Made by a program: the position numbers and the translations under genes. Shown piece after piece: positions 4,130 to 39,043 of a stretch of 39,359 bases of DNA (position 1 is the first letter of the stretch; each line of letters starts with the position of its first letter). The DNA comes from Flavobacteriales bacterium (GTDB lineage Bacteria; Bacteroidota; Bacteroidia; NS11-12g; UBA955): assembly GCA_947447955.1 (NCBI GenBank), contig CANFLS010000026.1:1-39359 (forward strand). The letters run 5' to 3'. Under the pieces are notes generated by a model. It searched no databases. It was given only the letters and a program-made list of their open reading frames with translations, and had not been told where the DNA came from.

Positions 4130-4705
4130 ATGTCGCCACGAAAGCTAGAAATATTTCAAACTGCGCTATCCCTCATGAAATCAAAGGGATATGCGAATAC
4201 CACCATGCGTGATATTGCATCGGCAGTGAATATGGAAGCGGCAAGTTTGTACAACCATATTACATCTAAAGAAGATCTTTTGGCAATTACTTGCTTTGAT
4301 CTTGCCGATCAATTTGAAAAAGGTATTCTAGAAGTGAACGATATTTACTTCGATGCCAAAGAGAAATTAAGAATGGCCATTGAAGCACATACGCAAATAT
4401 TGACAACCAACCTCGATGCGTCTTATGTATTTATTCACGAATGGAAACATTTATCTGCCGATAAATTAACTGAATTTAAAAATCGCCGTAACCAATATGA
4501 AAATGGCTTTATAGAGATTTTAAAACTTGGTGAAAATGAAGGTGTTTTTAATGATGTGGATGAAAAATTTGTGGTAATTACCATTTTGTCAACTTTGAAT
4601 GCAACAATTGAATGGTACAAACCCAATGGCGCATTTACACCGAAACAAGTAGCAAATAAACTTTCAGATTTTATCCTTAACGGATTACTCAATACAAAAA
4701 ACTAA
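4130..4705 (+). CDS. TetR/AcrR family regulator, likely PaaR-like
   Basis: This 191-residue protein has the TetR fold. The N-terminal helix-turn-helix is at residues 10-50 (GYANTTMRDIASAVNMEAASLYNHITSK, the usual T-x-R-x-I-A ... LYxHF pattern). The C-terminal helical ligand domain resembles the TetR_C_33 type found in acyl-CoA-responsive regulators. It is the first gene of the cluster and lies 33 bases upstream of paaA, behind a promoter with a palindromic operator. By analogy with PaaR proteins it probably represses the paa genes until phenylacetyl-CoA binds. The ligand is inferred from context only. Confidence 0.85.
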   Translation: MSPRKLEIFQTALSLMKSKGYANTTMRDIASAVNMEAASLYNHITSKEDLLAITCFDLADQFEKGILEVNDIYFDAKEKLRMAIEAHTQILTTNLDASYVFIHEWKHLSADKLTEFKNRRNQYENGFIEILKLGENEGVFNDVDEKFVVITILSTLNATIEWYKPNGAFTPKQVANKLSDFILNGLLNTKN

Positions 4706-4738
4706 CAAATTATTTAAAAAATTTAAACTCGAAAATAT

Positions 4739-5731
4739 ATGTACGGAAACGGTTATGTAGACCCGGAAAATAAGATCACCAACAGCATTACTGCAAATGA
4801 AGATCCTATTAAATTAGCAGAATTCGAATCTAGAATTGCTGCTGGCGACAAAATTGAACCAATGGACTGGATGCCTGCTGAATACAAAAAGCAACTCGTT
4901 CGTATGATTGAGCAACATGCCCATTCTGAAATTATTGGTGCACTTCCTGAAGGAACATGGATTACCCGTGCTCCAGGTTTTCGCCGTAAATTGGCGTTGA
5001 TGGCCAAAGTACAAGACGAAGTGGGTCATGGTCAATTGTTGTACAGCGCTGCCGAAACCTTAGGTAAAAGCAGAGAAGCAATGACAAACGATTTAATTAC
5101 CGGTAAAAGCAAATATAGCAACGTGTTTAACTACCCAGCAAAAACTTGGGCAGATAGCGCTGTGATTGCTTGGTTGATTGATGCAGGTGCAATTGTAAAC
5201 CAATTGGCAAATAGCAAAGGTAGTTACGGTCCATATTGCCGTGCACTTGATCGCATTTGTGCTGAAGAGTCTTTCCATTTGAAATACGGACACGACAATG
5301 TGGTATTCTTGGCAACAGGAACCCCTGTGCAACGTGCCATGGTGCAAGATGCATTAAACCGTTGGTGGGAACCAATTATGCACTTCTTTGGTCCTCCAGA
5401 TAAAGAATCTATCCACTCTGAAACATTGATGCGTTGGAAAGTAAAAATGGGTTCTAACGATGATATGAGAAACATGTTCTTGGATATGTATGTTCCTAAA
5501 ATTTGGGATTTGGGATTAACCCTACCTGATCCAAATCTTCACAAAAATGAAGAAACAGGTCGTTGGGAATACACGGAGCCAAATTGGGAAGTATTTAAAC
5601 AAGTAATTAACGGAAATGGTCCATGTAACAAGGAGCGTTTGGCTGTTCGTAGAAAAGCGGAAGAAAACGGCCGTTGGGTGCGTAAGGCTTTGGCTAAGCC
5701 AACCGAAAAATATGTTACACCACTTTCTTAA
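4739..5731 (+). CDS. paaA: 1,2-phenylacetyl-CoA epoxidase, catalytic subunit PaaA
   Basis: This is the oxygenase alpha subunit of the phenylacetyl-CoA epoxidase, which forms the ring-1,2-epoxide in aerobic phenylacetate degradation. The 330-residue length is typical. Carboxylate-bridged di-iron ligands are visible: E in the [13 protein letters not shown] region, [17 protein letters not shown] (ExxH), and [17 protein letters not shown] (ExxxH). The C-terminal part ([21 protein letters not shown]) is also characteristic. paaB follows after 12 bases. Cofactor reduction would need PaaE, which is not in this window. Confidence 0.97.
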
Positions 5732-5743
5732 TCCCTCAAAAAA

Positions 5744-6121
5744 ATGAACATAATTAGTTTAGATCCAAGGGTAACCCGTTCTCACATTGATGAAAATACC
5801 CAAGAGGGAATTGCAAATCCTTTGGAGCATTTTCAAACCTACGAAGTGTTTGAACAAAAGAAAAGAGGCACTCACCATATTCACGTTGGAAGCGTTCATG
5901 CACCAAGTGCTGAAATGGCGGTGATTTTTGCAAAAGAACAATATTCTCGCCGTGGTCAATGTGTGAATTTGTGGGTGGTGAAAACAGCCGATGTATTTGC
6001 AACAGAGTATGAAGATTCAGATATTTTCGATACCATTTCTGATAAAACTTACCGCGAGCCAGAAGCTTACAAAGTAATTGATAGAATTCAAGCATTTAAA
6101 GAACGTCAAAAAGCAAATTAA
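5744..6121 (+). CDS. paaB: 1,2-phenylacetyl-CoA epoxidase subunit PaaB
   Basis: PaaB is a small subunit needed to hold the epoxidase complex together. The 125-residue protein contains the family core YEVFEQKKRGTHHIHVGSVHAPSAEMA and ARYGQ-like YSRRGQCVNLWVV. It is somewhat longer than the proteobacterial form (about 95 residues) because of an N-terminal extension of about 30 residues. paaC starts five bases after its stop. The start is preceded by ATCCCTCAAAAAAATGAAC, a 19-base string repeated exactly at the pruA start. Confidence 0.95.
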   Translation: MNIISLDPRVTRSHIDENTQEGIANPLEHFQTYEVFEQKKRGTHHIHVGSVHAPSAEMAVIFAKEQYSRRGQCVNLWVVKTADVFATEYEDSDIFDTISDKTYREPEAYKVIDRIQAFKERQKAN

Positions 6122-6126
6122 CAATC

Positions 6127-6894
6127 ATGGAATTTACAGATAAACATGTACAAGGTTTAAAAGACCTGCTATATAAAATGGCTGATGATTTGTTAATCAT
6201 TGGACACAGAAACAGTGAATGGACAGGATTGGGACCAGTATTGGAAGAAGATATTGCTTTTTCGAGTATGGCTCAAGATAAAGTGGGTCAATCTTTGGCA
6301 TTGTATGAAATCTTACACCAATTGGGTGAAAGCGATCCAGATACAGTTGCTTTTACAAGAAATGCACCCCAGTTTCACTGTTCTCAATTGGTTGAATTGC
6401 CAATAGGAGAGTATGATTTTTCGTTGGTGCGTCATTTCTTTTTTGACCATGCCGATGCCATTCGTTTCGATATGCTTGCAACAACGGTAGTTGAACCATT
6501 GCAAATGGTTGCGAAGAAATTTCGTGGCGAAATTAAATACCACACCATGCATGCAGATATTTGGATGAAGCAGTTGGGTGAATCTGATGAAGCAAAAATG
6601 AGAATTCAAAACACAATCAATGAAGTGTTTCCATTTGCATTAGGTATGTTTGAACCATCTGAATTTGAAGCGGAATTGATAGAAGCAGGAATTTTTGATG
6701 GAGAGTTCGCTTTGCGTGAAAAATGGTTGAACAAAGTAGTTCCATTGTTGGAATCTTTCGGGTACACCGTTCCAAATGCAGAAACCATCATTCCTGAATT
6801 CGGTGGAAGAAAAGGCCAACACACAGAACACTTACAACCACTATTGGATGAAATGACAGAAGTTTTTGCCATTGATCCAGGTGCGGAGTGGTAA
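6127..6894 (+). CDS. paaC: 1,2-phenylacetyl-CoA epoxidase, structural subunit PaaC
   Basis: This 255-residue subunit is the ferritin-like partner of PaaA and forms the PaaAC heterodimer core. Family features include LLIIGHRNSEWTGLGPVLEEDIAFSSMAQDKVGQS near the N-terminus and KYHTMHADIWMKQLG in the middle. The di-iron ligand set is incomplete, as usual for PaaC, which is structural. It is the third gene of the tight paaABC run. A 105-base gap with GATTAGAC repeats and a perfect palindrome separates it from paaD. Confidence 0.96.
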   Translation: MEFTDKHVQGLKDLLYKMADDLLIIGHRNSEWTGLGPVLEEDIAFSSMAQDKVGQSLALYEILHQLGESDPDTVAFTRNAPQFHCSQLVELPIGEYDFSLVRHFFFDHADAIRFDMLATTVVEPLQMVAKKFRGEIKYHTMHADIWMKQLGESDEAKMRIQNTINEVFPFALGMFEPSEFEAELIEAGIFDGEFALREKWLNKVVPLLESFGYTVPNAETIIPEFGGRKGQHTEHLQPLLDEMTEVFAIDPGAEW

Positions 6895-6898: not shown

Positions 6899-6963
6899 GG
6901 ATTAGACGGATTAGACAGGTTAGACGGATTAGACAGATTATCCCGAAAGCTTTCGGGAAGATT
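6899..6963 (+). repeat. GATTAGACR repeats plus 18-bp palindrome
   Basis: Between paaC and paaD lie four or five copies of GATTAGACR, followed by the perfect palindrome TCCCGAAAGCTTTCGGGA (6941-6958). The block GATTAGAC...TTA-palindrome-AGATT recurs inverted at 38458-38494. The palindrome could form a stable hairpin and partly terminate paaABC transcription, but it lacks a T-run. Confidence 0.85.
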
Positions 6964-6999: not shown

Positions 7000-7479
7000 A
7001 TGACAGAAAAAATTAAATCCATATTGGAAACCGTCATGGATCCGGAGATCCCTACCTTGTCTATTGTAGACTTGGGAATAGTTACAGGGATTATATCAGA
7101 AACAGAGGGGCAGGCGCATATCAAGCTTACCCCTACATTTTCTGGTTGTCCGGCCCTGAAAATCATGGAAACCATGGTGCACGATAAACTCATTGAAGAG
7201 GGTTACACCGATGTGAAAGTCCATACTTCGTTTGATGTACAATGGAATTCTAACATGATTTCTGATAAAGGATTGGCCGCCCTTAAAAAACACGGTTTGG
7301 CACCGCCGCCGAAACACGATGGTTACTTTGAACTCGATGTTTTAAGCGATACTCCTTGTCCGTTGTGCGATTCAAGAAACACCACAATGAGCACCCCGTT
7401 TGGACCAACGCTTTGCAGAAGCATGCACTATTGCAATAATTGCAAAAATGCTTTTGAGGGATTTAAGCCTGTTGGCTAA
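7000..7479 (+). CDS. paaD: Phenylacetate-CoA oxygenase assembly protein PaaD
   Basis: PaaD is thought to help assemble or load the iron centre of the epoxidase system. The 159-residue protein has an N-terminal MIP18/DUF59 domain (VMDPEIPTLSIVDLGIVTGI and LTPTFSGCPALKIMETMV). Its C-terminal zinc-ribbon segment has paired cysteines, CPLC and CNNC, plus LCRSMHYC. That C-terminal extension separates PaaD from general SufT-type proteins. It is part of the paa cluster but lies 105 bases after paaC. Confidence 0.93.
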   Translation: MTEKIKSILETVMDPEIPTLSIVDLGIVTGIISETEGQAHIKLTPTFSGCPALKIMETMVHDKLIEEGYTDVKVHTSFDVQWNSNMISDKGLAALKKHGLAPPPKHDGYFELDVLSDTPCPLCDSRNTTMSTPFGPTLCRSMHYCNNCKNAFEGFKPVG

Positions 7480-7526: not shown

Positions 7527-10193
7527 ATGTCAATTTTAAAAAGGGTATTTTTATTTTTTATATTTCTTACAACTCATTTTGTTTTCGCCCAACGTTGTGG
7601 GTATGATTATTTACAAGCCTTTGTTGTTGAAATTGTCGATAAAAATCATACGGGAAACATTCCAGATTTAAAGCTAACATTAACCAATGAGTTTGGTGAG
7701 AAATTGGAATATACAAGGCCGCAATCAAACGGATATTCATTGCCCGATGAAGAACCCCATGTTTCATTGCCAGCGAGATTAAAACTTCCCTTTTTGAAAA
7801 ATTACCAACCTTCAAATTTGATGGAGTTTTGGGAAAATGGGAATACAAAAGGATTGTCTCACCCCGGCATAAATCAACCTGCCCACCTTAAATTGGCTGA
7901 TAATTTATATGTTATTTTTATTCAATTTGAATATTCCCTAAACACGCGTGTAGCGTTGCCAAATTTTCAGGTTTGGGTTGAAGACCTGGATAGCACCAAA
8001 CATTTTACTCAATTTCCAAGAAGACTGTTTCGATTGAATCCTGAAAAGGCCGTTTATCTTTGCGCCAATCATTTAATTGGGAAAAGTGAGGGTGTTTTTG
8101 ATCATGTTTATCATTTAGATGGGACCAAGTTTGAACCTCAGAAATTTGATTTGTCTGCGGGTAATCCATTGTACACAGGTAAAGTTGAGCGCCCATTTTA
8201 TTTTGATTTAGATTTCCAACCGGTGAATCACCATGTGCACCGTACCGATATGATTGATATGAAGTTGGAATCAATAAACGTGTTTTCTGGACGAGAGTTG
8301 CGATTTGTACAAAAAATTGTTTCGCAACATTATGCGAAATATGCAAAATTGCAAACCCAAAATCAAGATTTTAAAGAATTGAAATTAGGTGTTTTTCCAC
8401 AGTATTGGAAACCCGAAATGCTACATGAATTTGATGTACAAAAAGACGGTACAACGAATAATTTGATTGCTGTGCTTTATCAAAAAGGACGATCTTCTTC
8501 GGGGGTGCCACACCAACATGCTTTTTATTTTCAACATGATTCAATTGCGAATCTGTTTGTGTTTGACTCCCTTTTGAGTGAATATCCCAATGTGCTTTTT
8601 GATGAAGAACCCAATAAAATTATTCGGTATGTGATAACCGATAATCAATATGAATGTAAATTGACGTATTTTATTCTTGAGGGACGAATTTGGAAGTTTT
8701 ACAAAGAAAAGATTATTCGTGGTGAGTCTGTTCAACTTCAAATATCTAAATCTGTATTGAGTAATCTTTATGTTTTGGGATATATGCAAGACAAAGTAAC
8801 CAAGTTTGAAGTAGATGAGAAAAGCCATTTTACAGATACAATTTGGTTCGTGAATAAAGGTAAATCGACCGTTGATTTATCTAATTATACGTTGGTGCAA
8901 ACCAATAATCCGAGGATATTGAAGGTTGAGAAGGTTGTAATTCCCTCGGAATTAAAAGTGAGGGATACTGCCATGATCATATTTCATTTGGAAACTGTGC
9001 CCAATGCGTTGGCGCTGAGTATGTCAATGCCTTTTGAGTATTTGGATGTGAAGATAGAGTTTGCCTTCAATAAAACAGAAAAATTGCCCTTGAATTTGCG
9101 CTATTTGGGTATCTGTAAAGACTTAATTGAAAAAAAGACTTTAACCAAGTTCAACAGGTATGACGATGCAATCATTGCTGAATCTATCTTTTTTAAAGAA
9201 TATCAACGCGTGAATTGTCAATTAAAAATAGAAAATAATCAAATTGCAGCGTATGGTAAATTAATTCATGAAAATGACACATTAAAAAGGGTGGGAGATT
9301 GGTATTTTACCAATCCAAGAAATATGATTACATATTCTCGTGAGTTTGAATTTCAGGTCACCGCCGATAATGAAAAAGTAGATTCTACTTTGAAAATATT
9401 TGCTGTTAAAAATGGAATTCAAACAGAGTTGAAATACCGCTATAGCTTCGATTGGTTCCATTTGTGGCTTGATCCAAAGTTAGATTCAATCATTTTTCAA
9501 TGGAAGAACTACACCAATACCATATCCAAATTGAACAACAATTATTATCAATCGAAGATTATGGTACAATTAATAAGAAGCAATATTAAAACCATTTACC
9601 CTCAAAAATATCCGCAATTTGTGATGAATCAATCTTATGAATTTCAAAATACGATATATTTACTCAGCATGAAGGCAATTATAGATAACAATTATGATCT
9701 GGCACGTCATGATTTTATGATGAAATATAAAGGCATAAAGTTCCAAATAAATTTAAACTATTCACATGAATTTTTAGTTGCTGATTTTGAGGGATCTTCA
9801 ACTTCTGTAATAAATGATTTGTTATCAAAATGGATCCGAAAAGGAGAAATAAAATCAGCGCATCAAGCTATGAATATTGGGAATGGACTTGTCTTTTTGG
9901 GTTATAATTTGACTTTAAAACCAATTCAAAGGATTTACGGTGACAGCCTAAATAAAATTATTAATAAATTTGGATTCAAAATAGATCATTATTATGGTGA
10001 TGCTACCTATCTAGTTCACTCAGATTCAAAAATTTGTAATGAAAGATTATTTCAAAATATGTTGAGTTTAATCAATGATCCACAATTTATTACAGCAAAT
10101 CCAGAGTTTTTGCATCCCATTAAATGGGTGTTTGATGAAGGCGATCGTGAAGAAATGCTGGATCAACCAAAAAAGCGAATCCCTAAACGCTAA
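7527..10193 (+). CDS. Large secreted protein of unknown function
   Basis: I do not recognise this 888-residue protein. It has a clean signal peptide (SILKRVFLFFIFLTTHFVFAQ, cut after residue 21 or so). Near the N-terminus is an FVVEIVDKNHTGNIPDLKLTLTNEFGE stretch, like a carboxypeptidase-regulatory or beta-sandwich domain. The middle part (about 470-560) reads FVNKGKSTVDLSNYTLVQTNNPRILKVEKVVIPSELKVRDT, like an immunoglobulin-type DUF1573 or similar fold; that is an inference. There is no membrane anchor or Por-type sorting tail that I can see, and the C-terminus is basic. It starts 47 bases after paaD and converges on kdsB with only 17 bases between. Confidence 0.75.
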   Translation: MSILKRVFLFFIFLTTHFVFAQRCGYDYLQAFVVEIVDKNHTGNIPDLKLTLTNEFGEKLEYTRPQSNGYSLPDEEPHVSLPARLKLPFLKNYQPSNLMEFWENGNTKGLSHPGINQPAHLKLADNLYVIFIQFEYSLNTRVALPNFQVWVEDLDSTKHFTQFPRRLFRLNPEKAVYLCANHLIGKSEGVFDHVYHLDGTKFEPQKFDLSAGNPLYTGKVERPFYFDLDFQPVNHHVHRTDMIDMKLESINVFSGRELRFVQKIVSQHYAKYAKLQTQNQDFKELKLGVFPQYWKPEMLHEFDVQKDGTTNNLIAVLYQKGRSSSGVPHQHAFYFQHDSIANLFVFDSLLSEYPNVLFDEEPNKIIRYVITDNQYECKLTYFILEGRIWKFYKEKIIRGESVQLQISKSVLSNLYVLGYMQDKVTKFEVDEKSHFTDTIWFVNKGKSTVDLSNYTLVQTNNPRILKVEKVVIPSELKVRDTAMIIFHLETVPNALALSMSMPFEYLDVKIEFAFNKTEKLPLNLRYLGICKDLIEKKTLTKFNRYDDAIIAESIFFKEYQRVNCQLKIENNQIAAYGKLIHENDTLKRVGDWYFTNPRNMITYSREFEFQVTADNEKVDSTLKIFAVKNGIQTELKYRYSFDWFHLWLDPKLDSIIFQWKNYTNTISKLNNNYYQSKIMVQLIRSNIKTIYPQKYPQFVMNQSYEFQNTIYLLSMKAIIDNNYDLARHDFMMKYKGIKFQINLNYSHEFLVADFEGSSTSVINDLLSKWIRKGEIKSAHQAMNIGNGLVFLGYNLTLKPIQRIYGDSLNKIINKFGFKIDHYYGDATYLVHSDSKICNERLFQNMLSLINDPQFITANPEFLHPIKWVFDEGDREEMLDQPKKRIPKR

Positions 10194-10210: not shown

Positions 10211-10939
10211 CTAAACCAAAAAATTAATTGCCTTCACCAAATCTTCGGGGGTGTCAATGGCAGGACTTGCCCAATCGGTTTCTACAATGTCAATGGCATA
10301 GCCGTTTTCCAACCAGCGCAGTTGTTCGAGCATTTCCGATTTTTCTAATGGCGTAGGAGCCAATTTGGTTATCTCTAGCAATACATTGGGCCTGAAAGCG
10401 TACATACCAACATGTTTGTATGTACTTGAATGTCCCCCTTCCCTCAAAAATGGAATTGAAGAACGACTAAAATATAACGCACGTTGATTTACTCCCGCAA
10501 CCACTTTTACAATGTTTGGATTGTTGACATCGTCAATAGAAGTGAGTTCCTTTTTTAACGTGGCAATTTGGGTACTTTGATTTGCAAAACAATCAACCAA
10601 CAAATGAATTTGCTTGGCTGTGATAAATGGTTCATCGCCTTGAAGGTTTACAATTACATCGCAGTTCCATTTCAGTTGTTGCAATGCATCGGCACAGCGG
10701 TCTGTTCCACTTATATGGTGTGAACTTGTCATCACCACTTGGGCAAATGCTTGCACATGCTCTGCAATTCGAACATCGTCGGTGGCAACTGCAATTCCCA
10801 TGGTTGGGTTGGCAGATTGCGCAGCTTCAACGGTGCGTTGAATGACGGTTTTCCCTCCTAAATCAACCAGAGGTTTCCCTGGGAATCGGGTGCTGCCATA
10901 ACGTGCAGGAATGATGATGCCAAATTGTGGTTTTTCCAT
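10211..10939 (-). CDS. kdsB: 3-deoxy-manno-octulosonate cytidylyltransferase
   Basis: KdsB activates KDO with CTP to CMP-KDO for lipopolysaccharide inner core synthesis in the cytoplasm. The 242-residue protein has the full family pattern: PARYGSTRFPGKPL at the N-terminus, GTDRCADA (about residue 78), VNLQGDEPFI (about 95), YFSRSSIPF and HVGMYAFRPNVL. Its ATG overlaps the stop of the upstream phosphatase gene by one base (TAATG), so the two are probably translated together. This also fixes the start. Confidence 0.96.
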   Translation of the reverse strand: MEKPQFGIIIPARYGSTRFPGKPLVDLGGKTVIQRTVEAAQSANPTMGIAVATDDVRIAEHVQAFAQVVMTSSHHISGTDRCADALQQLKWNCDVIVNLQGDEPFITAKQIHLLVDCFANQSTQIATLKKELTSIDDVNNPNIVKVVAGVNQRALYFSRSSIPFLREGGHSSTYKHVGMYAFRPNVLLEITKLAPTPLEKSEMLEQLRWLENGYAIDIVETDWASPAIDTPEDLVKAINFLV

Positions 10940-12030
10940 TAATCTTTTTTGCTCATTTGCAATAATTGCAAAATTTTGTCGTGAATTTCGGTGTTTTCAT
11001 ACACACCTGCAAATAATTCACTTCCTGGTCCATAAGCAAAAACGGGAACCGGAATTCCAGAATGATGTCCTGTAGAGAAATGCATCGCTGGTTTGTTGTT
11101 CTTTTTATCGTAACCTATCAAACTCAAACCACCTGTTTCGTGATCGGCTGTGATGATTACCAAAGTTTCACCGTCTTTTTTGGCCCAATTGATTACCTCA
11201 GCAATGGTAGAGTCAAAATCCAACACCTCGGTAATTACATAGTTTGAATCGTTTTCATGCCCACCCCAATCAATTTGACTTCCTTCAATCATCAAAAAGA
11301 AACCATTTTTATTTTGGTTCAAATTTCTAATGGCAGCCATGCTGGCTTTTCTTTCGAAATCACCGCGTCCATTTAAGAATTTTGGAGGATGTTCGTTGGT
11401 GTCGTAAAAAGAAACAAATTGCTTGTCGTTAATGGTTTCCAAGTTAGAATGTCCAACATAAACCTTATGTCCACTTTCTCTCAATTTTGAGGTATCGAAG
11501 AATTTCAAACCGCCACCAATTGCAACGTCAATAAATCCCCCATAAAAATCATTTGCTATTTGTTTGTCTAACTTTCTACTTGGCTGATGCGCATAAAAAG
11601 AAGCAGGAGTAGCATGGGTTAATCCGCAAGTTGCAACCAATCCTGTAGCCTTGCCTTTCACATGCAGCCTTTCAGAAAGTGTAAACTCCGGTTGAGAATC
11701 TTTGGTAACGCCAATGGCTCCGTTGTAAGTTTTTTGTCCAATAGAAAATGCAGTTGCACCCGCGCCGCTATCGGTAATATAATCATTTGAGCTTGACGTC
11801 ATGCTCAATCCCAAATACTGAGCCAAAGAAAATACTTGTAGTTTTTGAGGGATAGTGGCTTGTGCCGCAGACCACTGAGCAAGTCCGGTTCCATCGCCAA
11901 TCATTAAAATTACATTTTTAACTTTTTTCGGGGTGTTTTGGACGTGTTTGATGCTGTCGTTTTGGGCAATTGCCAAATTTGATAATACAAGCGCTGTAAG
12001 TAATTGAAATGTTTTTAACGTCAATCTCAT
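10939..12030 (-). CDS. Secreted alkaline phosphatase
   Basis: This 363-residue protein belongs to the alkaline phosphatase family (Pfam PF00245), which releases phosphate from phosphomonoesters outside the cytoplasm. A signal peptide of about 22 residues ends LSNLAIAQ. Metal and catalytic motifs are intact: ILMIGDGTG (metal-binding Asp), YITDSGAGATAFS (nucleophilic Ser), IEGSQIDWGGHEND, ITADHETGG and FSTGHHSG. It is shorter than E. coli PhoA because of smaller loops. It shares a one-base stop/start overlap with kdsB. A TAACTTTG promoter box lies 8 bases upstream of the start. Confidence 0.95.
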   Translation of the reverse strand: MRLTLKTFQLLTALVLSNLAIAQNDSIKHVQNTPKKVKNVILMIGDGTGLAQWSAAQATIPQKLQVFSLAQYLGLSMTSSSNDYITDSGAGATAFSIGQKTYNGAIGVTKDSQPEFTLSERLHVKGKATGLVATCGLTHATPASFYAHQPSRKLDKQIANDFYGGFIDVAIGGGLKFFDTSKLRESGHKVYVGHSNLETINDKQFVSFYDTNEHPPKFLNGRGDFERKASMAAIRNLNQNKNGFFLMIEGSQIDWGGHENDSNYVITEVLDFDSTIAEVINWAKKDGETLVIITADHETGGLSLIGYDKKNNKPAMHFSTGHHSGIPVPVFAYGPGSELFAGVYENTEIHDKILQLLQMSKKD

Positions 12031-12179: not shown

Positions 12180-12206
12180 CAGTAAATTAAATTATCCCTC
12201 AAAAAA

Positions 12207-13835
12207 ATGAACGGTTTTTTCCAAGTCCCTAAAGCCATAAACGAACCCGTTTATGAATATGCTCCAGGAAGCATTGAACGTAAAAAGTTAAAAGAAGCAT
12301 TGGCAGAAGCACGTACGAAAGTACTCGATATCCCAATGTTTATTGGTGCCGACGAAGTTCGTACTGGCAACCTAATTGATATTTTCCCTCCACACGATAT
12401 TCATCATAAAATTGGCTCTTTTCACATGGGCACAGGTGCACATGTTCAACAAGCAATTGATACTGCCTTGGCAGCAAAACCAATGTGGGAAGCAATGCCT
12501 TGGGAGCAACGTGCTGCCATTTTCTTGAAAGCCGCTGAGTTGTTTGCAACAACCTACCGTTATGAAGTAAACGCAGTTACCATGTTGGCGCAAAGTAAAA
12601 ACTGTTACCAAGCTGAAATTGATGCAGCTTGTGAATGGATCGACTTTTTGCGTTTCAACGTACAATACATGAGCGAAATTTATGCAGAACAACCATCTGC
12701 AAATGCAAAAGGTATTTGGAATAGATTGGAATACCGTCCGTTAGAAGGATTTGTGTTTGCATTGACTCCATTTAACTTTACTGCTATTAGTGGTAACCTT
12801 CCAACAGCTCCCGCAATGATGGGAAATGTTGTGGTTTGGAAACCAGCCGATACCCAAGTTTATAGTGCCCAATTGTTGATGCGTGTTTTGAAAGAAGCAG
12901 GATTGCCAGATGGTGTAATTAACTTGGTTTATGCACCTGGTCCAGAAGTTGGAGAAGTTATTTTCAATCACGCCGATTTTGCAGGAATTCACTTCACAGG
13001 AAGTACCGCAGTGTTCAGACATATTTGGAATACCATTGGTACCAATATTGCCAAATACAGAAGCTACCCAAGAATTGTGGGTGAAACGGGTGGTAAAGAT
13101 TTTATCTTGGCTCACCAATCTGCCGATGAAGACGTTTTGGTTGCTGCCATGATTCGTGGTGCTTTCGAATTCCAAGGTCAAAAATGTTCTGCCGCTTCTC
13201 GTGTTTATATCCCTCAAAGTATTTGGCCTTCTGTGAAGTCTAAATTGTTGAAGGAAATGGCAACCATCAAAGTGGGTCCTACCGAAGACTTTAGCAATTT
13301 CGTAAATGCAGTCATTGACAAACGTGCCTTTGATAAAATTGCAGGATATATTGAATCTGCGAAAAAAGACGGTGTTGAAATCATTGCGGGTGGAACTTAT
13401 TCTGATGAAAAAGGATATTTTATTGATCCAACCATCATTATGGCGCCAACTGCCAATTACAGAACCATGTGTGAAGAGATTTTTGGTCCAGTATTGACGA
13501 TTTTCGTTTACGAAGACAAAGAGTGGAGCAACATGTTCAACATTGTTGATACCACCAGTGAATATGCATTAACCGGTGCTGTAATTTCGCAAGACAGAAA
13601 TACCATTGCCGAGGCAACTTGGGCTTTGAGAAACAGTGCAGGTAACTTCTACATCAACGACAAACCAACTGGTGCCGTTGTGGGTCAACAGCCTTTTGGT
13701 GGGGGACGTGGAAGTGGAACCAATGACAAAGCCGGTGCAAAAGTGAATTTGTTGCGTTGGGTAAGTCAACGTACCATCAAAGAAACCTTTACTCCTGTGA
13801 AAGATTACCGTTATTCGTTTTTGAACGAAGCGTAA
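12207..13835 (+). CDS. pruA: L-glutamate gamma-semialdehyde dehydrogenase (P5C dehydrogenase)
   Basis: PruA oxidises glutamate-semialdehyde (from proline via P5C) to glutamate with NAD. The 542-residue protein is the single-domain type without proline dehydrogenase. Aldehyde dehydrogenase landmarks are intact: FALTPFNFTAISGNLP, VVWKPADTQ, HFTGSTAVF, GETGGKDF (general-base Glu), GAFEFQGQKCSAASR (nucleophilic Cys) and EEIFGPVLTIFVY. The C-terminal QQPFGGGRGSGTNDKAG is typical for the P5CDH branch. A strong terminator follows, so it is transcribed alone. Confidence 0.96.
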   Translation: MNGFFQVPKAINEPVYEYAPGSIERKKLKEALAEARTKVLDIPMFIGADEVRTGNLIDIFPPHDIHHKIGSFHMGTGAHVQQAIDTALAAKPMWEAMPWEQRAAIFLKAAELFATTYRYEVNAVTMLAQSKNCYQAEIDAACEWIDFLRFNVQYMSEIYAEQPSANAKGIWNRLEYRPLEGFVFALTPFNFTAISGNLPTAPAMMGNVVVWKPADTQVYSAQLLMRVLKEAGLPDGVINLVYAPGPEVGEVIFNHADFAGIHFTGSTAVFRHIWNTIGTNIAKYRSYPRIVGETGGKDFILAHQSADEDVLVAAMIRGAFEFQGQKCSAASRVYIPQSIWPSVKSKLLKEMATIKVGPTEDFSNFVNAVIDKRAFDKIAGYIESAKKDGVEIIAGGTYSDEKGYFIDPTIIMAPTANYRTMCEEIFGPVLTIFVYEDKEWSNMFNIVDTTSEYALTGAVISQDRNTIAEATWALRNSAGNFYINDKPTGAVVGQQPFGGGRGSGTNDKAGAKVNLLRWVSQRTIKETFTPVKDYRYSFLNEA

Positions 13836-15129: not shown

Positions 15130-15134
15130 CTTTT

Positions 15135-15773: not shown

Positions 15774-15850
15774 AGGTTATTAGGAGTATGTTCAAATGTA
15801 TTCAGGGTCCTGAAAATGAATAATATGGTTGCAAATTTTTTCATAAATAG

Positions 15851-15926: not shown

Positions 15927-15944
15927 CAAAATAAACGATTGGAA

Positions 15945-16331: not shown

Positions 16332-16446
16332 CTTTACTGTCTCTATTTTCAAAAGTCTTGAAAACCAACAACAAGCAATATTTATTTTTCTATTTAGCAT
16401 GTTTCATTGACTGATAATTTGGCAATTACTTGTTAAAATTAAAACT

Positions 16447-19905: not shown

Positions 19906-19911
19906 GATCTG

Positions 19912-23718: not shown

Positions 23719-23795
23719 ATCCCAACTGAGGGATTTTTATCGGTAATGATTTTCGTAGATTATTGTCTAAAACTTATTATTACACTTGAACTCAT

Positions 23796-26944: not shown

Positions 26945-27091
26945 AAATTTTAGAACAATAAGAACAAAACTGTTCTTTCTCAATTAACTATAAAAGTTCC
27001 TTTTTTATTGTGAGGGATAGGAAATAAGTTTTTTAAATATTTACTTCAACGCAATTAAATTAAAAACAAATTAAATATCTTCGAATTAAAT

Positions 27092-29547: not shown

Positions 29548-30489
29548 TTAATTTTTTAATGCACTAATAAGTTTTGGTAAAATTTCGAATGCATCACCAA
29601 CGATACCATAATCGGCACTTTTAAAGAAAGGCGCTTCTGGGTCTTTGTTGATGGCAACAATGGTTTTACTTGAGCTCACACCAGCCAAATGCTGAATGGC
29701 TCCAGAAATACCAATTGCAATATATAAATTCGGTTTGATGGTAATACCAGTTTGTCCAACGTGTTCGCTGTGTGGTCTCCAACCCATGTCGCTCACAGGC
29801 TTAGAGCATGCAGTGGCAGCTCCAATTAAACTTGCCAATTCTTCAATCATGTTCCAGTTTTCTGGACCTTTCATTCCACGACCCGCACTTACAACCAACT
29901 CGGCTTCTGTCAATGGAATTTTGCCTGTTACTTTGTTTACTGCATTGATGGTGATTTTTGAGGGACTTGCGTTTACAGAAACTGATTCAGTTGCACAATC
30001 GCTGCCATTGGCATTGATTTCAAATGAATTCGGCGTGATAGCCAATACCTTAATATCGCGATTTAAATTGACAAATGCAAATGCTTTGCCTGAAAACACG
30101 CCTCTTTTCACGGTGAAACCGTTAGAAAGGTCAGGTACAGAGATTACGTTGGTTGCCAAAGATGCATTCAAAGAAATAGCAATTCTTGGCGCCAAAGATT
30201 TTCCAACATAAGAATTTGAAACAACCACAATAGATGCCCCAATTTGCTTGCAAATGGAAGCAAAAATTTCAGAAGTTGAATCTGATGTAAAACCATCTGT
30301 ATTGTTGCAATTCAATACTTTGCTTGCGCCGTATTTGCCAAGCTCTGCACTGTTTGCTATAGAAGAAATATTAACAGCAACAACTTCTTTGCCCATTAAT
30401 GTGCCAATTTCTTTGGCATAGGAAATGGCTTCGAAAGTTGACTTTTTAAATTGATTATCGGAACTCTCCGCAAAAACTACAATTGACAT
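29548..30489 (-). CDS. etfA: Electron transfer flavoprotein alpha subunit
   Basis: EtfA pairs with EtfB and carries FAD, moving electrons from acyl-CoA dehydrogenases to the membrane via ETF-quinone oxidoreductase. The 313-residue protein has the C-terminal FAD signature at about 200-300: VVSAGRGMKGPENW, ATACSKPVSDMGWRPHSEHVGQTG, PNLYIAIGISGAIQHLAGVSSSKTIVAINKDPEAPFF. It lies two bases after etfB. ETF would serve fatty-acid or phenylacetate beta-oxidation, in keeping with the paa genes in this window. Confidence 0.96.
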   Translation of the reverse strand: MSIVVFAESSDNQFKKSTFEAISYAKEIGTLMGKEVVAVNISSIANSAELGKYGASKVLNCNNTDGFTSDSTSEIFASICKQIGASIVVVSNSYVGKSLAPRIAISLNASLATNVISVPDLSNGFTVKRGVFSGKAFAFVNLNRDIKVLAITPNSFEINANGSDCATESVSVNASPSKITINAVNKVTGKIPLTEAELVVSAGRGMKGPENWNMIEELASLIGAATACSKPVSDMGWRPHSEHVGQTGITIKPNLYIAIGISGAIQHLAGVSSSKTIVAINKDPEAPFFKSADYGIVGDAFEILPKLISALKN

Positions 30490-31303: not shown

Positions 31304-32644
31304 ATGAGTCGATATCATTTTGTGGCAATAGGTGGGGCAGTAATGCATAACTTGGCATTAGAATTACATGCGTTGGGAAACGAAGTTACGGGAAGTGACG
31401 ACGAGATTTTTGATCCTGCGAAGTCCCGCTTGGCGGCAGCAAATATCCTTCCAGAAAATTATGGATGGTTCCCTGAAAAAATTACAAAAGAAATTGATGC
31501 AATTATCTTGGGCATGCATGCCAAAGACGATAATCCCGAATTAAAAAAGGCCCAAGAATTGGGACTTACTATTTATTCTTTCCCAGAATTTATTTACCAC
31601 CACTCACAAAATAAGCAGCGCATTGTGATAGCAGGTAGCCATGGAAAAACTACATCTACCGCAATGCTCATGCACATTTTGAAAAAGCAAAATATAGATG
31701 CAGATTATTTGGTAGGATCACTGTTGCCAGGATTCGACAGAATGGTGCGTTTATCCGACGCTCCCATTATTGTGATTGAAGGTGATGAATATTTGACTTC
31801 TCCCATTGATAAAACTCCAAAGTTTTGGCATTACAAACCTCAGTTTTCAATGATTACAGGAATTGCGTGGGACCATGTAAACGTATTTCCAACCTTTGAA
31901 AATTATATATACCAGTTTGAAAAATATTTGGAAACCATTTCGGAGGGATATTTTTACTACGCAAGTGATATTGAACTTGAAAAATTATCTAAAAACTTCC
32001 CTCAAAAAGCGAAACCTTACAAAGCCCCTAATTACAGGGTTGAAGAAAATGGGGTAGTCATAAATGTAGACAACACAGAAATTACCTTAAATATTTTCGG
32101 AAAGCACAATATAGAAAATGCAGCTGGCGTGGTTCAATTGGCAATAAAATTGGGATTATCTGAGTTTCAGGCTTGGCAATCACTTTCTGATTTCCCTGGT
32201 ACTGCAAAACGCTTAGAAAAGGTATATGAAGATGAAAACACTTTGGTGATTCGCGATTTTGCACACGCGCCTAGCAAGGTAAAGGCTTCGGTGAGTGCAG
32301 TTAGGGAACAATATCCCTCAAGAAACTTTGTAGCCGTATTCGAACTCCACACTTCGAGTAGCTTGATGCCGGAGTTTATGGGGCAATACAACCAAACCAT
32401 GGATGCCGCAGATACCGTTTTCGTGCTGTACGATGCCCATGTTTTTGAACTCAAAAGAATGCCGGTGCCGTCGGCCGAAACCATCAAAGAACGCTTAGGA
32501 AATGTTGCAGTTTTTAGCGATGCCGAGCAACTTAAGTTGGCGGTAAAACAGGCGCTTCATGTTCCTGAGGGACAAAAAAGCGTATTGCTTTTGATGAGCA
32601 GTGGCAATTTGGCGGGTTTAACCACCCAAGATTTTATAGGTTAA
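31304..32644 (+). CDS. mpl: UDP-MurNAc:murein tripeptide ligase Mpl
   Basis: Mpl links recovered L-Ala-D-Glu-meso-DAP to UDP-MurNAc in peptidoglycan recycling. The 446-residue Mur ligase has the N-terminal HFVAIGGAVMHNLALELHALGNEVTGSD. The ATP loop VIAGSHGKTTSTAM is at about residue 110. ITGIAWDHVNVFPTFENY, FGKHNIENAAG and IRDFAHAPSKVKAS follow. The GxAMxxLA start and HAP (rather than HHP) pattern favour Mpl over MurC. It converges on a GH3/serine-hydrolase gene that also acts on peptidoglycan fragments; their ends overlap by four bases. Confidence 0.93.
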   Translation: MSRYHFVAIGGAVMHNLALELHALGNEVTGSDDEIFDPAKSRLAAANILPENYGWFPEKITKEIDAIILGMHAKDDNPELKKAQELGLTIYSFPEFIYHHSQNKQRIVIAGSHGKTTSTAMLMHILKKQNIDADYLVGSLLPGFDRMVRLSDAPIIVIEGDEYLTSPIDKTPKFWHYKPQFSMITGIAWDHVNVFPTFENYIYQFEKYLETISEGYFYYASDIELEKLSKNFPQKAKPYKAPNYRVEENGVVINVDNTEITLNIFGKHNIENAAGVVQLAIKLGLSEFQAWQSLSDFPGTAKRLEKVYEDENTLVIRDFAHAPSKVKASVSAVREQYPSRNFVAVFELHTSSSLMPEFMGQYNQTMDAADTVFVLYDAHVFELKRMPVPSAETIKERLGNVAVFSDAEQLKLAVKQALHVPEGQKSVLLLMSSGNLAGLTTQDFIG

Positions 32645-35600
32645 TTTTTTTCTAAATCGCTGTAATACGATTTCAACAGTTTACCGCGAACACCTTCTTT
32701 GATCAATGCATTGTTGGCATCGGAAGGGTAAGTTCTGTTCGACAAGAAAATGAATACCAATTCATTGTCGGTGTCGGTCCAGGCCCAATTTCCGGTGAAT
32801 CCACTATGTCCGAATAGTGTTTCGGGTGCATTGTCAAAAATATTTGAAACCGAATAATGGTCATGGCTTCCAACATCACTTTTAAGGTGATTGGGGTAAC
32901 CATTGGGTTTATCAAAGCCCAAACCACGGTAATTGGTAGGATACAATTTATTGTAATGGGTTTTGGTAAACAATTTTACAGTTGATGCTGAAATATATTG
33001 TTTGTCGTGAAATTCGCCTTCATTCAAAAGCATTTGCATGATCTTAGCCAAATCGCGGCTATTTCCAAACAAACCTGCATTTCCAGCAACACCACCTAGT
33101 AAAGCTGCACTTGGGTCGTGAACGATACCTCGAATGGTGCCACGGGGCCAAATGGTGTCAATACCAGTTGGTAAAATCCATTGTTTCAATCCTTTTTTAA
33201 CGGGCAAATAGGTCATTTTAGTTAATCCCATTGGCTTATAGAATTGTTCATTAACAAAAGAATCAATCGGCATATTGGTTAAATATTCTACCCATTTTGC
33301 TAGGATAATCATATTTAAATCGCTATATTTATAGGAATAAACATTTGCAGGGGTGGTTTGGGTGGTCCATTTCCAAACGCTATCGGCATATCGTTTTTCT
33401 ATAAAACAAGTATCTCCCAATTGTATCGCAAAATTGAATGTGTCTTTAGCTAAAGTGTCAATGAAAACCCCATTCATTTTAGAAATTTTCAAACTACTGT
33501 CTTTTCTAATTTTGTCGGTTAGCGGTAAGAACGCCGGCAATCCTGATCTATGTGTTAAGAAATCTTCTATGCTGATGTTTCCCCAAGCAAAATTTTCGGC
33601 AGCTGGCCAATACGTTTTGATAGGAACATGCAATTTGAATTTCATTTTGTCGTAAATTTTCATCACCGCCAATGTGGTTGATGCAATTTTCGTTATGCTT
33701 GCCAAATCAAATACATTTTCTGAAGTGATTGGTCTTTTGATTTTTACACCTGCAGAATCAATAGGGTTGTAGCCAACATTAAATTCATCCACTACTTTTC
33801 CTTCCTTCAAAACCAAAAGTTGAATGGCAGTGGCCACTTTTCTATCAACCAATGATTCTAGGTAAGTTTTAATAGAAAGTGGGTCATGTCGGTAAAAGCC
33901 TACTTCATTAGGGTGAATAAATTCGAAATATTTATTGGTGCTTTCAATTTTGCTAATGTCCTTGTTTGTCCATGTTTCGCTAATTTTAGCGGGAAGGGTA
34001 GCTGTGGGTGCAAATTCTCCAAAAATTGCATCGGCAGAAGCCCTTTGGAAGGCATCGCCATTTTCATGGCCAATAACAACCGTATACTTTTTTGGTAAGT
34101 TTTTGATGGCATATAAATTACCCAATTGCACCAAAATTGTATTTTCAGGAAGACTGTCGCGTTGGAAAAACTCTTCAAGGTTTTTAGACATTCTTCTAGA
34201 GCGTTCACCCCAAAGAACTTGGCTTGAATTAACAACAATAAGTGGGTTGTTTTTGAGGGACAAATTGCGGTTTGCCAACAAGGTATCCAGTTGGTGCCCA
34301 TTGCCATCAAACTTGATCCAATTGATTTTGTGATATTCGGAAACTTTGTTGATGAATTCCACCGGAACATCTGCGCCGTAACTGATTACATTGATGGAGC
34401 CTTTTGTATGTTGGGTAAGTGGAATATTTTTGTTATTTAAAACAACAATACTCTTTCTTGCAAAATTATCGAGTGAAACGGGTCCAATAGAATTGAGTTT
34501 TGTAGTGGTAGATTTTTGGGTAAAGTCTTCGAAAATGGCATCCAGCTTTTGTTGGAGATTCTCGGTATTCACCAAACGATTGGTATTCAAACGCAATTGG
34601 TGTTTGGCAATCAATATTTTACGAACAGAGGCAGCCAAACTGATGCTATCTAACCATCCTGAATCTTTATATGTGATCGCTAGGTTTATTATTCCTTCAA
34701 TATTTTCTGGAAAGCACAATATATCGTTTCCAGCAATTAATGCTTTTACGCCTGCTTCTTCTGGTTTGTAATGGCTTGTAATGCCTTTCATGTTTAGTGC
34801 ATCGGTAATGATTAAACCTTTGTAACTCAGTTTGTTCTTCAAATAATCGGTGATGATGGGTTTCGACAAAGAAGCAGGTAGGTTTTTGGTGGAGTCTAGT
34901 AGAGGTATGCACAAATGCCCAACCATAATGCTTTTCACATCGGCTTGAATCATTTTCTTGAAAGGTTCCATTTCAAATGCCAACGATTCTGGGGTATGGT
35001 CTACCACTGGTAATTCTTTGTGAGAGTCTGCCTTCGTATTTCCATGCCCTGGAAAGTGTTTGGCACAACTATAAATGCCTGCATCTTCCATTCCTTGGCT
35101 AATTTCTTTTGCAAGTGCGGCAATGTTTTCAGGATCGTCGCCCAAGCTTCTAAATCCAATGATTGGGTTTTCAGGATTGATGTTTACATCAACGTCGGGT
35201 GCGAAGTTGATCATCACGCCCATCAATTTGCATTGCTGACCAATGGCATATCCAACGTTATAACAATAGTTTGGATCTTTTGTGGCAGCGAGGGTCATTT
35301 GGAAAGGAAACTTCCGCATGTTTGAAAGTCGCATTGACAAGCCCCATTCACCGTCAATTCCAATTAAAAGTGGAAGTTTAGATGACTGCTGATAAAAATT
35401 TTGTAAATATGCTTGAGAGAGGGGACTTCCTTGAAAGAAAATAATGCCACCAACTTCTTGTTTTTCTATGGCTGACAATACAACTGGGTCGGCGGCTATG
35501 TTTCGCGACCAAGCAGGAATCATGAGTGTTTGTCCTACGAGTTGTTTGAAATTTAATGTTTTTAAAATGCTATCGGCCCATTTTTCACTGTTATTTAAGT

Positions 35601-36478: not shown

Positions 36479-37909
36479 ATGGAGTTTCCAGACGATTTCT
36501 TTAAAGACAAATTATATAACAGCGAAGCTGATTACAGCGAAAATGTATCCTTCGAAAAAGTAATGGATCGCCGCCGTAAGAAACGCAGATTCATTTTTTG
36601 GTGGAACCCTAAAACGTATGCAACGCTTGGCGTATTGTTCCTAGGTGGACTAACCGCATTTGTTACCCATTCATTTAATGGTAAAACAACTAAGACAGAT
36701 CAAGTTAAAGTTGCCAATATTGATAGTCGCAACTCAATTGCGAAACAAACGACTAAGAAAGATGTTAAAACTGAACTTTCATTAGAGAGCAAAATTGAAG
36801 ACAATTCAAAGAATGTGACTCCAATGAATGCACCTAATTTGGTTGCAAATTTGACAATTGCCAAAAATGATGACAGTAAAGTTCAATCAGGTTTAAGAAG
36901 CAATAAACTTGGTGGTGTTTCTGAAACTTCGAAATATTTATTTTCAAAACGAAATAAGAAAACTGCAGATAAAGCTACAAATACGCTTGTTGTAAATGCT
37001 GCTAAAACGCTTGATAACAAACCTGAACCAATTTCCTCTGAGCAATTGTTTGGGGAATCTAAGTTTGCAAAAATATCTAGTTGGGCAAATGAAGATATCT
37101 ATAATTTAAGCAAATGGAATGATAGATTAAACTCAGCGAAACCGAAACAAAATCGATTTGGTTTTGAGGGATTGAAATTGGATATGCCTGAATTGGAATT
37201 TGATTTGCCAGAATTTGAAATTCATTTGAGAAAAACTCCATCTAAATGGTTTGCCGAATTATCGGTGATTACCGGAAGTAACAATACCATTGTTTTTGAA
37301 GATGATGTTCCATTAAGTGTGTTGGGTACCCAATATATGGCTCAATATCAATTGTTGGTGTTGAAAGATTTTGAAAATGGATCTATGTTTGGTGCTGGGG
37401 TTCAGTTTAGCGAATGGGTAGGCAATGGAAAATGGCAAAGAACATCTAATTTGATGGTGCCTAAAATTACCACACACAAAGTGCTTGTTTCTGCACCTTG
37501 GCAACCTAAAAAATATGCAATTTTGACTGATACTACTTATGAACCTGTAACGAATGTTCAATCTGGAGTGATAGAATATAAAATCGACAAAGTTTCATTC
37601 CCATTGGCATATCGTTTTTGTACCAGTATTGGCAAATTGCCAGTTAGATTTGGAATGCATTTGGCGCCAGGTTATACAACGGTTACAGAAGGTGTTTACT
37701 TTACACAAACAGATTTCCGTCCAATTCAATCTACCCGTCAAATGACAGTAGATGGAAGAATTACACTCGGTCCTATGTTTCCTATTACCAAGAAATGGAC
37801 ATTTGTAATGGAGCCTTCATTGATTTATCAATCGTTTGTAACTCCAGACAACCAAGTAAATGGTAAATTCTTCACCGGATTGGGTGTTGCAATTCTACGT
37901 CAATTTTAA
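36479..37909 (+). CDS. Membrane-spanning partner of the sigma factor, barrel-like C-terminus
   Basis: This 476-residue protein begins with about 45 acidic then very basic cytoplasmic residues (MDRRRKKRRFIFWW). One membrane helix follows (YATLGVLFLGGLTAFVTHSF, about 48-67), then a long Lys/Asn/Ser-rich linker. The C-terminal 230 residues show outer-membrane-barrel-like strands (WFAELSVITGSNN, FGAGVQFSEWVGNG, FGMHLAPGYTTVT, ITLGPMFPITKKWTFVMEPSLIYQS, ending GLGVAILRQF). The gene order says anti-sigma factor, but the N-terminus lacks the zinc HxxxCxxC motif. How one protein holds an inner-membrane helix and barrel-like strands is unclear. Confidence 0.7.
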   Translation: MEFPDDFFKDKLYNSEADYSENVSFEKVMDRRRKKRRFIFWWNPKTYATLGVLFLGGLTAFVTHSFNGKTTKTDQVKVANIDSRNSIAKQTTKKDVKTELSLESKIEDNSKNVTPMNAPNLVANLTIAKNDDSKVQSGLRSNKLGGVSETSKYLFSKRNKKTADKATNTLVVNAAKTLDNKPEPISSEQLFGESKFAKISSWANEDIYNLSKWNDRLNSAKPKQNRFGFEGLKLDMPELEFDLPEFEIHLRKTPSKWFAELSVITGSNNTIVFEDDVPLSVLGTQYMAQYQLLVLKDFENGSMFGAGVQFSEWVGNGKWQRTSNLMVPKITTHKVLVSAPWQPKKYAILTDTTYEPVTNVQSGVIEYKIDKVSFPLAYRFCTSIGKLPVRFGMHLAPGYTTVTEGVYFTQTDFRPIQSTRQMTVDGRITLGPMFPITKKWTFVMEPSLIYQSFVTPDNQVNGKFFTGLGVAILRQF

Positions 37910-38429: not shown

Positions 38430-38457
38430 ATACAAAAAAAAACTATAGATATAAACC

Positions 38458-38494
38458 AATCTTCCCGAAAGCTTTCGGGATAACTCGTCTAATC
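38458..38494 (-). repeat. Inverted copy of the palindrome/GATTAGAC block
   Basis: The palindrome TCCCGAAAGCTTTCGGGA (38463-38480) with flanks TTA and GATTAGAC on the minus strand repeats the 6927-6963 block in inverted orientation. It lies between arsR and the next gene and could act as a weak terminator or processing hairpin. Confidence 0.85.
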
Positions 38495-38512
38495 AAACAA
38501 TGAAAATTCAGT

Positions 38513-38555
38513 TATAAACTTTCATAAGCTTTTATAAACCATCATAAACCCTATA
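38513..38555 (+). repeat. TTATAAAC repeats before the DUF6428 gene
   Basis: Four TTATAAAC or CATAAAC copies at 10-12 base intervals (GTTATAAACTTTCATAAGCT, TTTATAAACCATCATAAACC) end 15 bases before the ATG at 38570. Confidence 0.65.
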
Positions 38556-38569
38556 ATTCACCCACCTAA

Positions 38570-39043
38570 ATGAAAATCTCCGAATTCAAAACCCAACTTG
38601 CTTCTATGCAAAGTTTATCATTCCGTTTGCCAAATGGTGAAACCATTCCTGCGCATTTCCACATTACCGAAGTTGGTAAAGTAACCAAAAACTATATTGA
38701 TTGTGGAGGGACAGTAAGAGATGAGTCGAAAGTTAATTTTCAGCTTTGGATCGCCAACGATACTGACCACCGTTTAAGTCCCTCAAAATTATTGGGAATA
38801 ATTGAATTGGCAAGCCCATTGATTGGCAACCAGGATTTCGATATTGAATTCGAATATCAAGGCGATACCATTTGTAAATATGGTGTTCAATTGATTTTGG
38901 GACATTTTGTTTTGACTGCCACGCAAACTGACTGTTTGGCAAAAGATCAATGTGGTATTCCTCAATATAAAATGCCTAAAAAATTGGCTGATTTAACGCC
39001 GAATGGAGGGTCAACGTGTACACCAGGTGGAGGCTGTTGTTAA
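38570..39043 (+). CDS. DUF6428 family protein, ars operon
   Basis: This 157-residue soluble protein matches the DUF6428 family that recurs beside arsR and arsC in Bacteroidota. It starts KISEFKTQLASMQSLSFRLPNGETIPAHFHITEVG, with IDCGGTVR and FQLWIANDTDHRLSP following. Its end is Cys-rich: TQTDCLAKDQCGIPQYKMP, then GGSTCTPGGGCC, which may bind arsenite or another metal; that is inference. Its function is not known. Its stop codon touches the arsC ATG (TAAATG), so both are made together. Confidence 0.85.
   Translation: MKISEFKTQLASMQSLSFRLPNGETIPAHFHITEVGKVTKNYIDCGGTVRDESKVNFQLWIANDTDHRLSPSKLLGIIELASPLIGNQDFDIEFEYQGDTICKYGVQLILGHFVLTATQTDCLAKDQCGIPQYKMPKKLADLTPNGGSTCTPGGGCC

Follow-up and report, generated by a model that had tools for sequence, protein, structure and literature searches.

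The question raised by this locus is why one short word, TTTTGAGGGAY, is dispersed in such excess over both strands of the window, that is, the whole 39,359-nucleotide contig CANFLS010000026.1 of the Flavobacteriales assembly GCA_947447955.1. We propose that, in an uncultured Bacteroidota genus, the word probably serves as a DNA-uptake sequence for self-recognition, read by a putative receptor that is not a pilus. This reading was chosen because the word is dispersed, neutral to frame and strand, conserved, rare in unshared DNA, and accompanied by related clade-specific words. The initial annotation had preferred an uptake sequence or a Chi-like signal over a regulator site, and a dispersed recognition signal of this kind is supported, as the sites lie on both strands and in all permitted frames, mostly within genes, are conserved, and are rarer in unshared DNA. 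For the analysis, we used the window's own assembly (G000; 2,808,179 bases in 70 contigs), of which 438 kb were sampled (L081-L100 plus the window), and a genus sample of 14 genomes (G000-G013). Several of these genomes are incomplete, and all those with a traceable origin are uncultured assemblies. Most sequence-level statistics come from two G000 contigs (C1 and C2) and one G004 contig.

In the window, the 25 listed copies of the core TGAGGGA were all found at their exact coordinates, with 14 on the plus strand and 11 on the minus strand. Base composition had been said to predict about three copies; dinucleotide shuffles gave 3.08, and the richest of 100 shuffles held 10. The extension to TTGAGGGA was recovered for 18 of the 25 copies, and the base after the core was T in 12, C in 10, A in 3, and G in none, as first described. 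Under an order-2 model, TGAGGGA was the top 7-mer of the window (25 against 2.0 expected), and TTTTGAGGGA occurred 14 times against 0.14 expected. TGAGGGA did not stand out in the window under a maximal-order model, which derives the expected count from sub-words of the motif itself; this is expected if the word is longer than seven bases.

The whole G000 assembly contains 380 copies of TTTTGAGGGAY (191 and 189 by strand), against 3 for a reversed-pattern control. The Markov comparison that had been proposed as a check was run with an order-3 model on the 438-kb sample; it yielded 213 copies of TGAGGGA against 30.7 expected, and 79 copies of TTTTGAGGGA against 1.9, a 41-fold excess. Site spacing was random in C1 and C2 of G000 and somewhat clumped in G004 (coefficient of variation 1.23 against 0.985, sd 0.097). 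In Neisseria, inverted motif pairs act as terminators. Pairs closer than 60 bp numbered 2, 1, and 2 here, against 3.3, 2.0, and 2.8 at random, and the terminator candidate was rejected.

A word of this kind could also arise from codon usage, from base composition, or from a mobile repeat that has spread. One observation points that way, namely that in the motif-rich genomes sampled, 155 of 399 sites fall in the single frame xxT GAG GGA. The placement of the 213 TGAGGGA copies was therefore compared with open reading frames (ORFs) of at least 100 aa called by a simple script. As a result, 98 copies were gene-sense (80 in one and 18 in the other of the two frames without a TGA stop), 90 were antisense with phases of 25, 34, and 31, and 25 lay between ORFs, where non-coding DNA makes up 14.7% of the sample. 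The sense and antisense counts agree with the absence of gene-direction bias noted before. Since antisense sites occupy every phase and further sites lie between ORFs, codon usage is not the cause of the word, and an excess confined to one frame, which the initial annotation had named as a ground for refutation, fails as an explanation. A family comparison covered 67 genomes with a completeness of at least 70%, and TTTTGAGGGAY was at background (0-10 copies) in the 54 members outside the genus. Codon usage, base composition, and a mobile repeat were rejected on the frame spread, the Markov excess of TTTTGAGGGA, the family background, and a conservation peak (below) that is restricted to the core, the flanks not being copied. 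We consider such an origin extremely improbable.

For the conservation analysis, alignment of C1 stretches of G000 to 200 kb of G004 C1 gave 157 kb at 85.1% identity. Of 96 aligned sites, 69 (72%) kept TGAGGGA intact, whereas words of the same letters permuted were intact at 402 of 1251 (32%), a control that takes no account of codon phase. With ungapped flanks and site-overlapping controls removed, the values were 65 of 91 against 30.3% of 1169, and 65 of the 81 G004 sites were conserved in G000. A matched flank control gave 63 of 88 (0.72) for the core of the G000 sites, with a mean of 0.38 and a maximum of 0.48 for the flanking 7-mers; from G004 to G000, the core reached 63 of 79 (0.80) and the flanks 0.42, with a maximum of 0.56. 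The core-over-flank gap is smaller than that obtained with permuted words and is still clear. Within the window, conservation was complete for the 11 sites covered by L002 (90.3% identity) and the 11 covered by L003 (87.2%), and it fell to two of four in L001 and three of six in L004, which are more distant. From equal word counts, we infer that records L015, L005, L013, L006, L003, and L016 correspond to G034, G061, G008, G011, G004, and G002, all six of them metagenome-assembled genomes (MAGs). A few record titles suggest a freshwater habitat.

Depletion in unshared DNA, another proposed check, was also observed. TGAGGGA occurred at 0.61/kb in DNA aligned to G004 and at 0.19/kb in 52.7 kb of unaligned DNA; this corresponds to 96 and 10 sites, for which composition expects 8.9 and 2.5, on one contig and against one sister genome. 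Two gaps in the window had been put forward in the same sense. The first, positions 1-4168, indeed lacks TGAGGGA, and the gap is marginal on its own (P 0.08 at the core rate of 0.61/kb). The second, 14.2-22.2 kb, does hold a single copy (at 17217), again a marginal gap (P 0.04), and the limits of this island are better placed at about 14,970-25,617, an interval with four sites.

The word is enriched in close relatives, as the initial annotation had suggested looking for, with 325 copies of TTTTGAGGGAY in G004 and 307 in G013. Besides the 380 of G000, high counts were found in G010 (253), G006 (226), and G012 (219). The remaining genus members hold 78 (G008), 27 (G011), 20 (G003), and 1-6 copies (G001, G002, G005, G007, and G009). 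Other words take its place in part of the genus. TTTC[GT]GGGGAY, counted as TTTCNGGGGAY, reaches 225 in G011, 186 in G003, and 84 in G008, against 4-18 in the other 11 genomes. TTTTGGGGGAW occurs 278 times in G008, 74 times in G009, 26-70 times in ten other genus members, 11 times in G005, and 8 times in G001, and its counts in 56 other family members are 0-18. The W is T in the G008 sample (TTGGGGGAT 10 against 0.9 expected, TTGGGGGAA 0 against 1.2). GGGGGAAnT is favoured in the samples of G009 (26 against 4.1 in 152 kb) and G002 (12 against 1.9 in 71 kb). For G001, there is a weak candidate word only, TAAAGGGNA (16 against 4.3 in 85 kb), and the 120-kb samples taken from G005 and G007 yielded no dialect.

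These counts were set against a maximum likelihood tree of the 14 genomes, built from one protein, a 1072-aa helicase-nuclease, which stands in for a species tree and in which the long branches of G001, G005, and G008 were flagged. In this tree, G000, G013, G004, G012 with G006, and G010 group together, and G008 is sister to that clade; the other groups are G003 with G011, and G002 with G007 and G009. The words follow clades, as the tree groups match the word distribution. The genus words TTTTGAGGGAY, TTTTGGGGGAT, TTTC[GT]GGGGAY, and GGGGGAAnT are related dialects that follow the tree, and they are new here.

In other parts of the family, GGGCGAT, which differs from GGGGGAT at a single base, may perhaps be part of the same dialect system. 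Among the 107 genomes counted, G034 holds 1986 copies against 103 controls. In genus g14, 13 of 15 genomes exceed their control at least 4.9-fold, and the other two do so 2.9-fold. The ratio reaches 3.4-fold as background in family f2 (38 genomes) and 3.0-fold in G035, the genus-mate of G034, while G044 shows 4.5-fold and the rest of f1 up to 3.6-fold. An upstream T bias of GGGCGAT fits the dialect system. When 10 other family genomes were pooled at 20 kb each, no strong word of the GGGA type emerged; this test is blind to GGGCGAT, the carriers of which belong to genera g7 and g14, outside those 10 genomes.

Alignment of the sites revealed a footprint longer than the core. The extended consensus has T at -9, -6, -3, -2, and -1, C or T at +7 (G in 3%), A or T at +8, T at +9, and G at +16, in pooled genomes that share ancestry, so that the sites are not independent. 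A codon effect was initially considered for the G at +16. This was rejected, as the frequency of that G, 0.44 overall and 0.30 once sites in the favoured frame are excluded, remains above the background of about 0.18. In the same 244 of 399 sites outside that frame, T at +9 reaches 0.52, T at -9 0.51, and T at -6 0.49. The motif weakly specifies about two helical turns (~25 bp) of double-stranded DNA.

The initial annotation had left the choice between an uptake sequence and a Chi-like recombination signal. At a Chi-like site, a recombination helicase-nuclease would stop degrading and start loading RecA, so that self DNA is protected. The word resembles the Chi sites of RecBCD and AddAB in being short, G-rich, and over-represented in shared DNA, and it is rarer in unshared DNA. 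A candidate enzyme is available as well, namely the 1072-aa chain, a UvrD/PcrA-like helicase with a C-terminal PD-(D/E)XK nuclease, and such a long chain is present in 14 of the 14 genomes. The strand polarity differs from that of Chi. With replichores deduced from GC skew only, 109 of 188 sites (58%) in C1 and C2 lay on the G-rich strand, for which strand composition predicts 64%. There is no polarity like that of Chi or of FtsK-orienting polar sequences (KOPS), because the G-rich-strand share does not exceed composition, and replication-oriented signals (Chi, KOPS, and architecture imparting sequences) were set aside on this ground.

The suggested search for AddAB or RecBCD genes was carried out with the PF12705 profile, which we take to be the nuclease domain common to RecB, AddA, and AddB. 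It matched once in each of 13 genomes and twice in G000, always on a long chain; one chain per genome (14 of 14) measures 998-1106 aa, with a helicase motif in each ORF. Both G000 proteins carry UvrD-helicase domains and score best as PcrA, below all AddA and RecB cut-offs, the second being scored from a 735-aa part. The PF12705 matches sit on UvrD-type chains, and this profile revealed no AddB- or RecB-like chain in the 14 genomes (RecC and RecD were not searched separately), which makes Chi unlikely. In addition, G005 encodes the helicase-nuclease but lacks the word in its sample, and the 25-bp consensus suits double-stranded binding, which argues against Chi. Overall, we regard a Chi-like role as unlikely. 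As a separate observation, the second G000 match (L141, G000:C47) is an extra UvrD-PD-(D/E)XK helicase-nuclease with a 928-aa open frame, while the other 13 genomes have one match each.

The gene search was extended to competence. ComEC (PF03772) was detected in 12 of 14 genomes and not found in G009 (96% complete) and G001 (77%). DprA (PF02481) was detected in 11 of 14 and not found in G005 (98% complete), G006 (74%), and G012 (58%). Among these 11, the dprA of G007 (L197, G007:C12) is broken, being split over two reading frames, which could be an assembly error. Of the 9 motif-rich genomes, 7 have both ComEC and DprA without a noticed break, as does 1 of the 5 motif-poor genomes (Fisher p 0.09). 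The two motif-rich genomes without DprA are those with 74% and 58% completeness, and dprA is missing (G005) or broken (G007) in two motif-poor genomes. That the word fades where comEC or dprA is missing is suggestive only.

The same data bear on a further alternative, in which the word would be the binding site of an abundant chromosome-organising (nucleoid) protein, the specificity of which drifts among clades. Sites in coding and intergenic DNA, with no orientation bias, conserved, and with a footprint of about 25 bp, are what such a protein would leave. However, it leaves unexplained both the three-fold rarity in unshared DNA and the tendency of the word to fade without comEC or dprA (p 0.09). 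Moreover, to our knowledge, the known chromosome organisers mark restricted regions or are strand-biased, and the motif showed neither. We think this alternative unlikely. Of the two readings first offered, uptake was retained, for which the clade-specific dialects speak and, weakly, the distribution of competence genes; Chi was disfavoured.

As an uptake sequence, the word would act as follows. A cell-surface receptor would bind the motif on double-stranded DNA and prefer marked DNA from the same species. The DNA would pass ComEC into the cytoplasm as a single strand, and DprA and RecA would recombine the incoming strand. Repeated biased uptake would then spread marked alleles, and the word would accumulate in shared genes and lag in newly acquired DNA. 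A shift in receptor specificity would shift the word of the genome and give rise to clade-specific dialects, and the word would fade once competence is lost. In this scheme, uptake itself, the receptor, the part of RecA, and a causal link between competence and the word are all putative.

Several points weigh against this reading. Uptake in these organisms is something we infer from sequence. The unaligned blocks are still about 4-fold enriched in the word (10 against 2.5 expected), and the unaligned DNA may be partly diverged instead of acquired. G008 holds three variants at once. As for GGGCGAT, its frames are uneven, and aligning the cores leaves its +16 G out of line. The association of competence genes with the motif falls short of significance (p 0.09) and is based on incomplete MAGs; G002 has both ComEC and DprA and yet a weak word, and a weak word is also present in G009, where no ComEC was found. 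ComEC and DprA are, besides, common in bacteria without uptake sequences, and both match in most control genomes. Finally, PF00437, the type II/IV assembly ATPase, was over the cut-off in none of the 14 genomes, with weak partial matches in 7, in a search that did not extend to other pilus parts or pilins. There is no evident uptake machine of the canonical pilus type, as PF00437 has no match above the cut-off.

Known uptake systems were then compared. ComP is a type IV minor pilin. As described in PMC3630211, it binds the DNA uptake sequence (DUS) of Neisseriaceae, a short non-palindromic word with clade-specific variants along the core-genome phylogeny, sometimes two per genome. The genus studied here likewise has a short word with clade-following dialects (compare PMC3630211). 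It differs in sequence and phylum and in having no match to a pilus-type ATPase over the cut-off, and uptake is proven for the DUS but only proposed for the present word. In Neisseria and Haemophilus, DNA is taken up by type IV pili, according to PMC7965970.

The uptake signal sequence (USS) of Pasteurellaceae comes in two clade-specific types with a partly common core, and AT-rich repeats flank it in Haemophilus (PMC1626085); clade-specific types and a flanking A/T bias are shared with the present word. Among three Pasteurellaceae whose competence genes are defective, the same source reports far fewer USS copies for H. ducreyi, while the other two keep many USS or are not singled out there. 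Our motif-poor genomes with ComEC or DprA gaps resemble H. ducreyi (PMC1626085), a likeness that is suggestive only. Sequence and phylum differ from the USS, and the density is lower, with TGAGGGA at 0.49/kb in the 438-kb sample against 1471 USS cores in the 1.8 Mb of H. influenzae (PMC1626085). Closer in phylum, Riemerella columbina (Flavobacteriaceae) prefers its own DNA in natural transformation and, like the present genus, belongs to a Bacteroidota group with ComEC and DprA (PMC7965970). Its candidate k-mers, unlike the word here, are A/T-rich; the accessible text of PMC7965970 leaves their function open and names no G-rich word. Apart from these open candidates, our searches of the open-licence PMC literature brought up no uptake sequence or Chi site described for Bacteroidota.

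More broadly, we suggest, tentatively and with somewhat less than even confidence, that one Bacteroidota family, independently of Neisseriaceae and Pasteurellaceae, evolved self-DNA recognition for transformation, with at least 4-5 dialects, a surface receptor other than a type IV pilin, and shifts within the genus that act as barriers to gene exchange among species. If true, this would be a third independent case, in another phylum and with no evident pilus ATPases, so that DNA self-marking would evolve repeatedly, and a new class of DNA receptor would be implied. The close dialects within one genus would also form a ladder for direct tests of how uptake specificity and genetic isolation evolve.

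The individual sites of the window differ in extension and in conservation. The TGAGGGAT site at 4169..4175 (minus strand), with ATTTCA before it, is kept in L002 and L003 and not in L004. Kept in all of L001-L004 are the TTTTTTGAGGGAT site at 5732..5738 (minus), between a PaaA-like ORF and the following ORF, and the TTGAGGGAC site at 8678..8684 (plus). Two plus-strand sites, TTTTGAGGGAT at 7455..7461 and TGAGGGAT at 8959..8965, are kept in L002 and L003 and not in L001 and L004, and the TTTTTGAGGGAA site at 10440..10446 (minus) is kept in L002, L003, and L004. L002 and L003 keep five more: TTTTGAGGGAT at 9788..9794 (plus), TTTTTGAGGGAT at 11846..11852 (plus), TTTTTTGAGGGAT at 12195..12201 (minus), directly ahead of a P5CDH-like ORF, TTTGAGGGAT at 13210..13216 (minus), and TGAGGGAC at 14174..14180 (plus). 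Inside the stretch missing from L003 lie TTTTTTGAGGGAC at 17217..17223 (plus), TTTTGAGGGAC at 22250..22256 (minus), TGAGGGAC at 22677..22683 (plus), and TGAGGGAT at 23727..23733 (plus). The remaining sites were obtained by sequence count. On the plus strand, these are TGAGGGAT at 27011..27017, TTTTTGAGGGAC at 29959..29965 and 34254..34260, TGAGGGAC at 32566..32572, and TTTTGAGGGAT at 37165..37171; on the minus strand, TTGAGGGAC at 28510..28516, TTTTTGAGGGAA at 28607..28613 and 31998..32004, TTGAGGGAT at 32314..32320, and TTTTGAGGGAC at 38779..38785.

The stretch missing from L003 corresponds to a jump from window position 14,969 to 25,618, with about 10.6 kb (14970-25617) and 4 of the 25 sites absent there; most of 26,339-28,068 is missing from L003 as well. 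Directly ahead of this island, the ORF at 13941-14969 matches PF04245, the 37-kD nucleoid-associated protein family.

Other repeats were seen in the same material. A 9-bp tandem unit (AATCTGTCT and GGATTAGAC variants) forms arrays at window positions 3097-3206, 6899-6940, and near 38487. Elsewhere in the sampled G000, such arrays are clustered: L084 has 17 clusters and L087 has 8, while 9 of the 21 stretches have none. Further species-specific repeat words are CGGTGATCGG in G003 (L116-L120), GTTTATAAAAG in G004 (L101-L110), and ACTATGGAC, GTACATGGT, and CCCGGTACC in G011 (L129-L130, L159-L161). Restriction-type palindromes are usually avoided in genomes. The palindrome CTGCAG is over-represented per 100 kb in G005 (L111-L115; 70 against 23) and in G003 (L116-L120; 62 against 26).

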